From: a candidate division NC10 bacterium CSP1-5
Lineage (GTDB): Bacteria > Methylomirabilota > Methylomirabilia > Methylomirabilales > CSP1-5
DNA: 17,400 nucleotides
Direction: 5' to 3'
Assembly (NCBI GenBank): GCA_001443495.1
Contig: LDXR01000028.1
Location: 1-17,400, forward strand
In this document: one piece after another, positions 4,981 to 11,078 of the stretch
How the letters are laid out: every line of letters starts with the position of its first letter
How positions within the stretch are numbered: the stretch's first letter is position 1
The notes under the pieces: generated by a model
What the model was told of the DNA's origin: nothing
What the model saw: only the letters and a program-made list of their open reading frames with translations
Database searches by the model: none
Position numbers and translations under genes: made by a program

Positions 4981-4996
4981 TGGCACGCTCCTTGCC
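4981..4996 (+). promoter_or_regulatory. Sigma-54-type (-24/-12) promoter upstream of the 43-residue microprotein
   Basis: TGGCACGCTCCTTGCC matches the sigma-54 consensus TGGCAC-N5-TTGCW at all positions except the last W (C here). The GG and GC dinucleotides are separated by the required 10 bases. Transcription would start near 5007, leaving about 60 bases of leader before the ATG at 5068. The element also forms an inverted repeat TGGCA-N7-TGCCA, so a fortuitous palindrome or another binding site is possible. The minus-strand match is weaker. No clear paired enhancer (bEBP) site was found upstream. Confidence 0.6.
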
Positions 4997-5002
4997 ACAG
5001 AA

Positions 5003-5020
5003 GCCTACGAACCCTTAGGC
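5003..5020 (+). other. Small stem-loop in the leader of the microprotein gene
   Basis: GCCTA (5003-5007) and TAGGC (5016-5020) can pair around an 8-base loop, starting about where the sigma-54 transcript would begin. Five base pairs is short; it may stabilise the 5' end of the transcript or mean nothing. Confidence 0.25.
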
Positions 5021-5067
5021 GGTCTCAAGCATAAACAAGCTGGGAGGGGGGGAAGGAAGAAGGAAGG

Positions 5068-5199
5068 ATGGAAGGTTTGTACTATAAAGTGATCTGGAGC
5101 ATTCTGCTCTTCCCGTGGTCCCTCGTGGGCCTGATGGTCCTGGGGGCCCTGCGGCAAAACCGCCGGAAGGCCCACGCGCGCGTCCAGAGCCGCCCGTAG
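5068..5199 (+). CDS. 43-residue single-pass membrane microprotein, unknown function
   Basis: Not recognised as any named family. ATG at 5068-5070 to TAG at 5197-5199. The layout is a short polar head (MEGLYYK), one hydrophobic helix of about 21 residues (8-28, containing WSILLFPWSLVGL) and a strongly basic tail (RQNRRKAHARVQSRP), so it is probably anchored with the tail in the cytoplasm by the positive-inside rule. A purine-rich ribosome-binding region (GGAAGGAAGAAGGAAGG) runs directly up to the ATG. Support for reality: a sigma-54-type promoter 71 bases upstream, a strong terminator starting 6 bases after the stop, and a coherent membrane-protein composition. The gene stands alone between divergent mtnA and convergent groEL. 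No conserved motif could be named. Confidence 0.65.
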   Translation: MEGLYYKVIWSILLFPWSLVGLMVLGALRQNRRKAHARVQSRP

Positions 5200-5205
5200 A
5201 GATGC

Positions 5206-5237
5206 AAAAACCCCCAGGGGGCGTCCTGGGGGTTTTT
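5206..5237. terminator. Strong bidirectional intrinsic terminator
   Basis: A perfect 13-base-pair inverted repeat, AAAAACCCCCAGG (5206-5218) and CCTGGGGGTTTTT (5225-5237), encloses a 6-base loop (GGGCGT). Each strand gives a GC-rich stem ending in five T's, so it can stop transcription from the microprotein gene (stop at 5199) and from groEL, whose stop lies 40 bases away on the other side. Confidence 0.9.
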
Positions 5238-7518: not shown

Positions 7519-8658
7519 ATGAGACAGAGAGCGACGTACGCCGAGGTCTCCCTCGATGCTATCGTCCGGAACCTTGACCGGGTCCGGGCTTGCACGGGGA
7601 AAGAGACGGAGATCATGGCGGTAGTCAAGGCCGACGCCTATGGCCACGGCGCCTTGCCTGTTGCGCGAGCGCTCGTGGAGGCCGGCGCAGGGTGGTTGGG
7701 TGTGGCCCTCCCCGAGGAGGGGGTGGAACTCAGGAGGCAAGGCCTGCAGGTGCCCATACTGGTGATGGGCCCCACCCCCGCCGATCAGGGTCCCATCCTC
7801 TCTGAATACCATCTGGATCAGGTCATCTACCATACGCTTCATGGCCGTGCCCTTGCGTCGAGCGCCGAAGGCTCGAGCGCCCGGGTCAGGGTTCATCTCA
7901 AGATCGACACCGGGATGGGGCGATTGGGCATTCATCCCTCCGAGGCACCCGTTGCGGCGAAGGCGATTACCCGGCTGCCCACACTGGAATTCGGAGGGGT
8001 GATGACCCATTTTGCCGCAGCCGATGCGGCCGATAAGGGCCATGCCCGCGAGCAGCTTCGGCGGTTTCTCGAGGCGATCCGGGAAATAGAGGCGGCAGGG
8101 ATTTCAGTCCCGCTGCGGCATGCCGCCAACAGCGCGGCCGTCCTGGACCTTCGCGAGGCCCACCTGGACATGGTGCGGCCGGGGATTGTCCTCTACGGCT
8201 ATCCGCCGTCCCCGTCGGGTGCGCGCGATGGGGGCTGGGAGCATGCGCTGACCCTCAAGACCTGCATTGCCCAGATCAAGAAGGTGCCGAAGGGCGGCAC
8301 CGTGAGCTACGGCTGTACGTACGAAGCCCCACGGGATATCCTCGCCGCCACGCTCCCCGTGGGATACGCGGACGGCTACAATCGCCTCCTCTCCAACCGG
8401 GGACAGGTGCTCATCCGGGGACGCCGGGCCCCGCTGATCGGCCAGGTGTGTATGGACATGATCATGGTGGACGTGACCGATCTGGTCGGGGTGAGGGAGG
8501 GGGAGGAGGCGGTGCTCCTCGGACGCCAGGGGGACGAGACGCTCCTCGCTGATGAGTGGGCGGTGCGGCTCGGGACGATTTCCTATGAGGTGTTATGCAA
8601 TATTAGCAAGCGAGTTCCTCGGTCCTACCTCTGGCACGGAAAGGCCGTCAACTCCTAG
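7519..8658 (+). CDS. alr: Alanine racemase, PLP-dependent
   Basis: Makes D-alanine from L-alanine for peptidoglycan. 379 residues. The PLP lysine is Lys37 in VVKADAYGHGA; the second catalytic base is Tyr264 in TVSYGCTYEA. Other family marks are KIDTGMGRLGI, GGVMTHFAAAD, HAANSAAVL, MVRPGIVLYGYPP, LPVGYADGYNR and IGQVCMDMIMVDVTD. The frame is open from 7300, but the added part would run through the promoter and part of CIRCE. The ATG at 7519 begins the family sequence (MRQRATYAEVSLDAIVRN) and has AAGGTG four bases upstream. It is transcribed divergently from groES; what follows on the same strand has a separate promoter. Confidence 0.97.
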   Translation: MRQRATYAEVSLDAIVRNLDRVRACTGKETEIMAVVKADAYGHGALPVARALVEAGAGWLGVALPEEGVELRRQGLQVPILVMGPTPADQGPILSEYHLDQVIYHTLHGRALASSAEGSSARVRVHLKIDTGMGRLGIHPSEAPVAAKAITRLPTLEFGGVMTHFAAADAADKGHAREQLRRFLEAIREIEAAGISVPLRHAANSAAVLDLREAHLDMVRPGIVLYGYPPSPSGARDGGWEHALTLKTCIAQIKKVPKGGTVSYGCTYEAPRDILAATLPVGYADGYNRLLSNRGQVLIRGRRAPLIGQVCMDMIMVDVTDLVGVREGEEAVLLGRQGDETLLADEWAVRLGTISYEVLCNISKRVPRSYLWHGKAVNS

Positions 8659-8833: not shown

Positions 8834-8849
8834 TGGCATACGGCTTGCA
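8834..8849 (+). promoter_or_regulatory. Sigma-54-type (-24/-12) promoter for the Ycf46-like ATPase gene group
   Basis: TGGCATACGGCTTGCA matches TGGCAC-N5-TTGCW at every position but one (T for the final C of TGGCAC), with GG and GC separated by 10 bases. The predicted start is near 8860; the first start codon lies 70 bases after the element, almost the same spacing as at the other sigma-54-type site (71 bases). Transcription from here would need RpoN and an AAA+ enhancer-binding protein, neither of which is in the window. Confidence 0.7.
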
Positions 8850-8919
8850 GCGAAATAGGATAAGGACAATGACTCGAGCCGACCGACAGGGGTAAAGGGA
8901 GATTATACAGGAGCAGTCG

Positions 8920-9129
8920 ATGGCGAGGACCGAGCACAATCCTAAGCTTGCGGTGCAGGATCTGAAGGAATTCGATGAACAGGACCTACGGCAGCTTGAG
9001 AAATCGGGAATCACTCCGTACCACCTGGCCAGTTTCCTCGATTCCCTGCGGAACAATGTGAATCCCCGCTGCCTCACGGGGTGTGACGAGATGCAGGCTC
9101 AAGAGGAGTACTGCTGTACGTTCGTGTGA
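8920..9129 (+). CDS. 69-residue hypothetical protein with Cys-rich C-terminus
   Basis: Not recognised. The first two thirds are charged and helical (QDLKEFDEQDLRQLEKSG), followed by ITPYHLASFLDSL and a tail with four cysteines (Cys51, Cys55, Cys65, Cys66; CLTGC and a CC pair four residues from the end). The spacing could bind a metal or form disulfides, but no known finger pattern fits. ATG at 8920-8922 with CAGGAG seven bases before it, and a sigma-54-type promoter 70 bases upstream. First gene of a likely unit with the membrane protein at 9210 and the AAA+ ATPase at 9600. The protein has even, non-repetitive composition, which favours a real gene. Confidence 0.65.
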   Translation: MARTEHNPKLAVQDLKEFDEQDLRQLEKSGITPYHLASFLDSLRNNVNPRCLTGCDEMQAQEEYCCTFV

Positions 9130-9209
9130 TTCCTGCCTCCACCATGGTTCGATACGGGGTGCCTCGAGCGGCACTGGTGAACTGCGGGTTCGGAAAGGAG
9201 AAGAGGTCC

Positions 9210-9482
9210 ATGGGTAGTGTGGCAAGACGTGGCGTCGTGATGGGCGGGCGGACCGTATTCCCGGGGCGTAGGAGAGCTAGGGGTGCGAGTCGGATGAGGG
9301 CACGTCCAGTCTCTACCGTCGCCGGTATCATCGAGAGGGCCTTGGAGGCAGCCGGAAAGAACGAGCACGCGGAGGCCCTTCTGGTTGGGCTTGGCGCAGC
9401 CGCCCTCTGTGTTCTTCTCGGGTATGCCATCGTGGCTCTCTCCAAATTCCAGGTGGGTCTCTTCGCCATCGTCCTCGGCTGA
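9210..9482 (+). CDS. Small Arg-rich single-pass membrane protein, hypothetical
   Basis: Not recognised. 90 residues with the ATG at 9210-9212, chosen because AAGGAG lies nine bases upstream; the same frame is open from a GTG at 9126 that overlaps the previous stop but has no usable ribosome-binding site. Residues 6-32 hold about ten arginines. Residues 36-55 look like an amphipathic helix (STVAGIIERALEAAGKNEHA), and 56-78 form one transmembrane helix (ALLVGLGAAALCVLLGYAIV) followed by a short hydrophobic end (LFAIVLG). Codon third positions are GC-rich from about residue 35 but less so before, so the true start could be the ATG at 9294. It lies between the Cys-tail protein and the AAA+ ATPase, probably in one operon. 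Confidence 0.5.
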   Translation: MGSVARRGVVMGGRTVFPGRRRARGASRMRARPVSTVAGIIERALEAAGKNEHAEALLVGLGAAALCVLLGYAIVALSKFQVGLFAIVLG

Positions 9483-9599
9483 CGCGGGCCGCCTTCGAAC
9501 CTGGCGTAGAGGGCCGTTGAAGGGCCGACCGTCCTCCACCACCCTCCCCCAGCAGAAACCACTCCGGGGAAGCGGAGAATCTGAGGGGCTCACGCTGGC

Positions 9600-11078
9600 A
9601 TGGAAGTCCTGAAGGATCTCGAACTGCTCGTCCTCTCCCGCTATTCGATCATCGCCGTCGAGACCTACGAAGAGGAGCGCATCGAGGAGATCCTGAGGCG
9701 CATTGCGGCCAAACTGGGGATCCCCCTCTTCATGTGGACCGTCACCAGAGGGCTCGAGCGGGTCGGGGCGGGGAACCCGATCTACGACAGCCAGCATCCC
9801 CTGAAGGCCCTGGGCAATCTGGCCGCCATCCCGGACGAGGGGATCTACCTCTTCAAAGATCTCCACCGGTATCTGGGGGAGGCCGACGTGGTCCGCAGGC
9901 TTCAGGACCTCGCCAGGCCCTTCGCCAAGGATCGCAGGGCCCTCGTCCTCGCGGCACCACAAATCACGCTTCCACCCGAGCTGGAAAAAATCACAGCCTT
10001 CTTCAGGCTTGACCTCCCCACGGAGCATGAGCTGAAGATTCTTGCCAAGAACGTCGTCAAGAACCTCTCCCAATCTCACAAGATCAAGGTGGCGCTTTCG
10101 TCGGATGAGTTCGACCGGCTGGTGGAAGGCATGAAGGGACTCACCCTTTTCGAAGCGGAGCGAGCCCTGACCAAGGCTGTCATCGAGGATCTGGCGCTGA
10201 CACTGAAAGACCTGGACAGCATCCTCGAAACTAAGAGGGCGCTCCTCGAAAAGGACGGGGTCCTGGAGTACTTTCCCGCTGAAGAGGGGATGGGCGAGAT
10301 CGGGGGACTCGAGAATTTGAAGCGGTGGCTGGCCAAGCGAAAGAAGGCCTTCACCCCGGAGGCCAAGCGGTTCGGCATCCCGGCCCCCAAGGGGATCATC
10401 CTCTTGGGAGTCCAGGGCTGCGGCAAGAGCATGGCCGCCAAGGCCATCGCCAGGGAGTGGGGGCTGCCCTTACTCACGATGGAGCCCGGACGACTTTACG
10501 ACAAGTATGTGGGCGAGTCGGATAAGAACCTCGAGAAGGCCCTGACGCAGGCCGAGCGGATGGCCCCGTGTGTGCTGATGATCGATGAGATCGAGAAGGG
10601 CTTTGCCTACGGGGGCAGCTCGGAGGCCGATGCCGGGCTCTCCAAACGGATCTTCGGCCGGCTCCTGGGGTGGCTCCAAGAGCGCAAGACCTCTGTGTTT
10701 GTCGTTGCCACCTGTAACCAAATTGAGGCGCTGCCGCCGGAGTTGATACGGAAAGGGCGCTTTGACGAGATTTTCTTTATTGATCTTCCGAGGCAGGATG
10801 AGCGGAAGGAGATCTTCAGGGCCCACCTCAGAAAGCGGAAGCGCGAACCGGCCGCTTTTGACCTTGACGGGCTCGCTCACGCCTCGGAGGGATTCAGCGG
10901 CGCCGAGATCGAGCAGGCGGTCGTTTCCGCTCTCTACACCGCCTTTGCTCATGGTGCCGACCTCGATACCCCCTTGGTCCTCGACGAGATCAAGGCGACC
11001 AGGCCCCTCTCGGTCACCCGGCAGGAGGAGGTCGCGGCGCTCCGCGCGTGGGCCAGTGGCCGGGCCGTACCCGCCTAG
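9600..11078 (+). CDS. Ycf46-like AAA+ ATPase
   Basis: 492 residues. The N-terminal half (about 1-220) is a degenerate ATPase-like domain seen in the Ycf46 family: no P-loop, but GIYLFKDLHRYL (81-92) sits where Walker B would be and LVLAAPQITLPPELEK (115-130) where sensor 1 would be. The C-terminal AAA+ domain is complete: Walker A GVQGCGKS (270-277), Walker B VLMIDE (325-330), sensor-1 Asn373 in VVATCNQ, Arg-finger region ELIRKGRFDE (R384, R387) and sensor-2 helix SGAEIEQA (433-440). Ycf46 is conserved in cyanobacteria and some plastids, where a role in inorganic-carbon use has been proposed; its role in other bacteria is unknown. The ATG at 9600 fits the family N-terminus; GAGGGG is a distant ribosome-binding site. 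It lies 117 bases after the membrane-protein gene, with no terminator seen. Confidence 0.88.
   Translation: MEVLKDLELLVLSRYSIIAVETYEEERIEEILRRIAAKLGIPLFMWTVTRGLERVGAGNPIYDSQHPLKALGNLAAIPDEGIYLFKDLHRYLGEADVVRRLQDLARPFAKDRRALVLAAPQITLPPELEKITAFFRLDLPTEHELKILAKNVVKNLSQSHKIKVALSSDEFDRLVEGMKGLTLFEAERALTKAVIEDLALTLKDLDSILETKRALLEKDGVLEYFPAEEGMGEIGGLENLKRWLAKRKKAFTPEAKRFGIPAPKGIILLGVQGCGKSMAAKAIAREWGLPLLTMEPGRLYDKYVGESDKNLEKALTQAERMAPCVLMIDEIEKGFAYGGSSEADAGLSKRIFGRLLGWLQERKTSVFVVATCNQIEALPPELIRKGRFDEIFFIDLPRQDERKEIFRAHLRKRKREPAAFDLDGLAHASEGFSGAEIEQAVVSALYTAFAHGADLDTPLVLDEIKATRPLSVTRQEEVAALRAWASGRAVPA

Follow-up and report, generated by a model that had tools for sequence, protein, structure and literature searches.

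A conserved sigma-54 unit of two small genes next to a Ycf46-like ATPase gene in a genus of NC10 bacteria

Phage-shock (Psp) operons are sigma-54-driven units with small membrane proteins. The unit described here, from a candidate division NC10 bacterium, is like them in its sigma-54 drive and its small membrane protein, but its small proteins have no Pfam or NCBIfam family and the AAA+ protein encoded beside it is not among the Sigma54_activat matches of the genome. On the scale of whole regulons, sigma-54 has been associated with a 'bacterial exterior' theme together with nitrogen (Francke et al. 2011, PMC3162934). The RpoN exterior regulons of that study resemble the present case in their TGGCAY-N5-TTGC promoters of the -24/-12 type, in having RpoN and multiple activators, and in their envelope, pilus and signalling targets. 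The RpoN regulon of Geobacter sulfurreducens (PMC2725144) is also among the closest known systems. Compared with known RpoN regulons, several of the targets here are undescribed small proteins. The literature searched contained no description of such a sigma-54 regulon for NC10 bacteria.

The AAA+ protein itself is like the Ycf46 / COG0464 ATPases, with 37-39% full-length identity to cyanobacterial homologues and an active AAA domain that may, as in that family, come after an N-terminal domain with no Walker A. Ycf46 of Synechocystis has been linked to CO2 utilisation (Jiang et al. 2015, as cited in PMC12172450). The present ATPase differs from this family in that its gene follows a sigma-54 unit in the genus and has no photosynthetic context. 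The locus at 8834-9482 is likely, with some reservation, to be a sigma-54 unit for two small proteins within a cell-exterior regulon, the ATPase gene possibly receiving read-through from it and not being needed by it.

The promoter and the sigma-54 machinery

The sequence TGGCATACGGCTTGCA (TGGCAT-ACGGC-TTGCA; 8834-8849, forward strand) is the sole perfect match to TGGCAYN5TTGCW in the window, which is the whole 17,400-nucleotide stretch of DNA that was analysed; by chance, 0.51 matches would be expected there with one mismatch permitted. It has the -24 GG and -12 GC elements at their fixed spacing and near consensus, and it lies in the gap between the end of an alanine-racemase-like ORF (8658) and a 69-aa ORF. 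The transcription start is predicted near 8860. In an alignment of the upstream region from seven genomes of the genus, the two elements are invariant, and no other unbroken invariant block is as long as TGGCA or TTGCA; most of the aligned sequence has diverged, with invariance otherwise limited to isolated columns and some short stretches. The near-consensus -24/-12 promoter recognised in the preliminary description is therefore confirmed. In this species a palindrome, CCTGT-N16-ACAGG, can be seen by eye 5' of the promoter. It is absent from some of the genomes, and no role in binding an activator is proposed for it.

The window comes from a 2.77 Mb draft genome. It was proposed at the outset that rpoN be looked for, and the gene is present (PF00309, E 2e-17, in a 472-aa open frame), as are 12 Sigma54_activat domains that are full-length or nearly so, along with some partial domains. 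The motif TGGCAYN5TTGC has 67 matches in the genome, part of which are inside coding frames and may be due to chance, against 3 for the mirror pattern. The six congeners have 28 to 97 matches, against 1 to 7 for the mirror pattern. The motif is thus far above chance both in this genome and in its congeners. Many of the sites in the genome are 20-120 nt 5' of a start codon that has a Shine-Dalgarno sequence.

Other sigma-54 sites in the genome precede genes for PilZ, pilin-like, bactofilin, MlaC, BON and BamE-like proteins, as well as histidine-kinase, GNAT and PII genes (PII by eye), a set in keeping with the exterior and nitrogen theme of sigma-54 (PMC3162934). Taken together, the comparisons argue for a large sigma-54 regulon in an NC10 genus.

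The two small genes

The first gene behind the promoter (8920-9129, forward strand) encodes a small protein of 69 aa, predicted to be helical, with a variable tail. The second (9210-9482, forward strand) encodes a predicted 90-aa single-pass membrane protein with its TM helix at about residues 57-77. Both proteins belong to genus-restricted orphan families. They had been called unrecognised and this stands, as neither family has anything above cut-off in Pfam or NCBIfam; a match to DUF1133 (E 0.27) is below the cut-off and was rejected. Across 95 NC10 genomes both families are confined to the genus, and the 88 genomes outside it have no member of either, one weak membrane-family match (E 9e-5) having been discounted since it is inside a 591-aa frame. 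By the Nei-Gojobori method, informative pairs of small-gene homologues have dN/dS values of approximately 0.3-0.45; another three pairs, which show just 4-8 differences, are uninformative. Both ORFs look coding and fast-evolving.

The 69-aa family has a conserved core, EF-x7-L-x3-GI[TS]PYH[LI]A-x-FL-x2-LRNN-x2-P. Its AlphaFold model consists of helices at low confidence (pLDDT 66), and a fold search with this model gave no matches. In species-wide scans the single sequence also gave no matches, and an alignment query run against approximately 85,000 species matched NC10 MAGs only. The named relatives of the gene are all MAGs of Candidatus Methylomirabilota, the NC10 phylum. Ankyrin-like PDB matches of the profile were rejected because they sum a 15-20-residue G-TP-HLA motif across repeats; almost no single stretch passes.

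A cysteine-rich tail had led to the suggestion that the 69-aa protein binds a metal or thiols. Six homologues have 4, 2, 2, 2, 0 and 0 cysteines, with no fully conserved column, and the four in the tail are found in this species only. Because cysteine is not conserved in the family, and two members are entirely free of it, such binding is unlikely and the suggestion was dropped.

The start of the 90-aa gene is an ATG with a conserved Shine-Dalgarno sequence; stop codons in the sister genome, G002, shut off an alternative start at a GTG further upstream (9126). The protein contains a single, strongly hydrophobic helix and is conserved in its C-terminal half, and the net charge of its N-terminal part varies from +8 to -5 among homologues. 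The N-terminal half is Arg-rich in this species and has net charges of -3 and -5 in two homologues. The Arg-rich character noted in the preliminary description is therefore not general to the family, and an Arg-rich tail was rejected as a functional feature because it is not conserved. Both the number of cysteines and the richness in arginine are confined to this species and its closest relatives.

The ATPase gene and its association with the small genes

The ATPase (9600-11078, forward strand; 492 aa) has an AAA domain (PF00004, 7e-30) with the Walker A and B sequences GVQGCGKS and LMIDEIEKG in conserved columns. Its earlier assignment as a Ycf46-like AAA+ ATPase is supported by cyanobacterial homologues in Pseudanabaena, Planktothrix and Geminocystis that align over 98-100% of its length; their records are annotated only as 'AAA family ATPase', which makes the Ycf46 name itself putative. 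Full-length homologues with 37-44% identity are also found on plasmids of cyanobacteria, actinobacteria, a spirochaete and Paenibacillus, and the family is a broader one, present in many phyla. In Foldseek the whole model (mean pLDDT 68) aligns to tandem p97 D1-D2 chains with a large rmsd. From this weak model, the alignment suggests that the protein begins with a degenerate AAA-like domain that has no Walker A and that its second AAA domain is the active one. Identity as an IetA/TRIP13 anti-phage ATPase was rejected, since the PADLOC models match the AAA domain only; the score against the IteA model is 86.7 bits, with a cut-off of 510.

The order alr, promoter, 69-aa gene, membrane gene, ATPase gene is kept in this species (G000) and in G002, G003 and G006. 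An inositol-monophosphatase-like ORF (IMPase) follows the ATPase on the same strand in these genomes where the contig extends that far; alr and IMPase are named by eye. Wherever in the genus the ATPase is present and its flanks can be read, as in these four genomes, both small genes lie directly 5' of it and in the same order. In G005 the promoter and the ATPase are kept and an assembly N gap covers the small-gene region. The distance from the membrane gene to the ATPase is 118-150 nt, with no T-run longer than 3 in any of the four genomes, which bears out the earlier statement that no terminator separates them. Because none intervenes, the ATPase can receive read-through, and transcription from the sigma-54 promoter may run on into it.

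A single functional operon, along the lines of the preliminary description, could explain these observations: under sigma-54 control, the membrane protein, alone or together with the 69-aa protein, would bring the Ycf46-like ATPase to the membrane or regulate it there. The kept order, the promoter and ATPase on either side of the gap in G005, and the terminator-free interval all agree with it. However, this explanation is unlikely in view of two congeners, G001 and G004, that retain the promoter and the membrane gene without the ATPase. At this locus both lack the 69-aa gene as well, the interval being filled by an opposite-strand ORF that is SAM-methyltransferase-like by eye (VLDVASGTGF), and no match to the ATPase is found elsewhere in either genome. 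In an MtnA tree rooted on the f7 family, G003 falls outside G001, G000 and G002 (support 88/93), which makes loss in G001 and G004 the likelier direction, with moderate support. G001 and G004 are not paired in a midpoint-drawn Alr tree. The joint absence of the 69-aa gene and the ATPase, with loss suggested, would fit a functional link between these two and in that respect favours the operon.

Each of the small genes also has a stand-alone paralogue, which again argues against a single machine. A second 69-aa gene is found alone behind the promoter TGGCATAAGG(A/C)TTGCC in G003:C79 and G006:C30, and G003 has a second membrane gene alone, with what seems to be a partial 69-aa gene 5' of it. Outside the genus, ATPase homologues of the f7 family are 60-70% identical where full-length and have no small partners. 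There is no sigma-54 site just upstream of them, and several are near proC-, divIVA- and mtnA-like ORFs (mtnA by tblastn, the others by eye). No ATPase orthologue from another genus of the class is accompanied by the small genes. The expectation that the small genes stay beside the ATPase therefore holds for the four genomes of the genus in which it can be assessed and fails for orthologues outside the genus; the occurrence of the ATPase without the small proteins, which the preliminary description gave as counter-evidence to its reading, is seen outside the genus and not within it. Added to this, the Arg-rich tail varies, as described above, and in G003 and G006 an extended -10 (TGGTATGAT) is present 52 nt 5' of the ATPase.

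This extended -10 raises the converse case, that the ATPase is transcribed only from a housekeeping promoter of its own and shares nothing but its location with the sigma-54 unit. The ATPase has dN/dS values of 0.15-0.21 against those of the informative small-gene pairs, indicating that selection differs. Yet no sigma-70-like promoter was recognised between the membrane gene and the ATPase in G000 or G002, and nothing there would terminate read-through, which leaves complete independence quite unlikely. It is very unlikely that the two genus-specific small proteins are sigma-54-switched adaptors that bring a p97-like tandem Ycf46-family ATPase to the inner membrane; if they were, they would be the first known membrane adaptors for this poorly understood family. 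A machine linking the ATPase and the small proteins is possible and is not the favoured explanation. Two adjacent fast-evolving small genes, one of them for a TM peptide, might also call to mind a toxin-antitoxin or defence pair with the ATPase as effector. This is barely credible given that each small gene is found without the other, contrary to obligate pairing, that the small proteins have no match in PADLOC and the ATPase matches IetA/TRIP13 through its AAA domain only, and that the chromosomal address is fixed within the genus.

The ATPase is probably a positional neighbour of the small genes rather than their obligate partner. The conserved sigma-54 unit at 8834-9482 is itself well supported in this NC10 genus, and its gene content is mix-and-match. 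In such a two-small-protein unit, a sigma-54 activator would fire and RNA polymerase with sigma-54 would transcribe both genus-specific genes, predicted to share a single transcript, yielding a soluble helical 69-aa protein and a 90-aa protein with a single pass through the inner membrane. The membrane protein is the likely core product because its gene is the only one to accompany the promoter in all readable genomes; it would most likely insert by its single helix and modulate an envelope process. The 69-aa protein would be an accessory, one that is also encoded as a stand-alone sigma-54 gene, and the downstream ATPase would be dispensable to the unit even if reached by read-through. The unit would be part of an RpoN regulon that covers the cell surface, pili, c-di-GMP effectors, and envelope lipid and outer-membrane maintenance. 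It is this company, together with one TM helix, that points to a possible role in the envelope. That the ATPase has been loosened from the small genes is a caution against operon-based guesses on the function of Ycf46.

Two side observations concern the paralogues. A perfect inverted repeat, CTTTCTGT-N20-ACAGAAAG, is present 5' of the promoter of the stand-alone 69-aa paralogue (L030, approximately 7810-7860; L035, approximately 5090-5130) and is a possible activator site. The lone membrane gene copy (L031, 3400-4099; G003:C169) is also preceded by a possible 30-aa TM ORF with a degenerate sigma-54 site, TGGCATGTAGTGTGC.

Other small proteins behind sigma-54 sites

A second sigma-54 promoter in the window, TGGCACGCTCCTTGCC (4981-4996, forward strand), precedes an ORF for a putative 43-aa membrane microprotein of the same regulon with an LLFPWSL motif (5068-5199, forward strand; MEGLYYKVIWSILLFPWSLVGLMVLGALRQNRRKAHARVQSRP). 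A strong hairpin terminator follows, and the whole (4981-5237) has mtnA and groEL on either side. G001, G002, G003, G004 and G005 retain both the promoter and the ORF. The 17 of 95 NC10 genomes with relatives that carry the LLFPWSL motif are spread over several families of the order; a canonical sigma-54 site is present 72-100 nt 5' of the matched stretch in 11 of 19 places. This makes a conserved microprotein under RpoN control a testable proposition.

Conserved small ORFs of 43, 46, 55, 69 and 69 aa are found behind sigma-54 sites, are shared with G003 or G004 neighbourhoods and have no family. Part of the targets of the regulon are thus undescribed small proteins missed by family libraries. 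A 46-aa ORF (L080, 1541-1678) and a 69-aa ORF (L078, 1272-1478, reverse strand), both with paired CxxC, and a 55-aa ORF (L069, 1290-1454, reverse strand) are each preceded by a sigma-54 site, lack a Pfam family and have a sigma-54-preceded relative in G003 or G004. Another sigma-54-preceded gene (L102, 1024-1410, reverse strand) encodes a protein with a signal-peptide-like start, in which the stretch LTDTELDAVTGG resembles a double-glycine leader. In L060 there are tandem paralogues of 116 aa with a single TM helix (1086-1433 and 2252-2599, both on the reverse strand), each with its own sigma-54 site.
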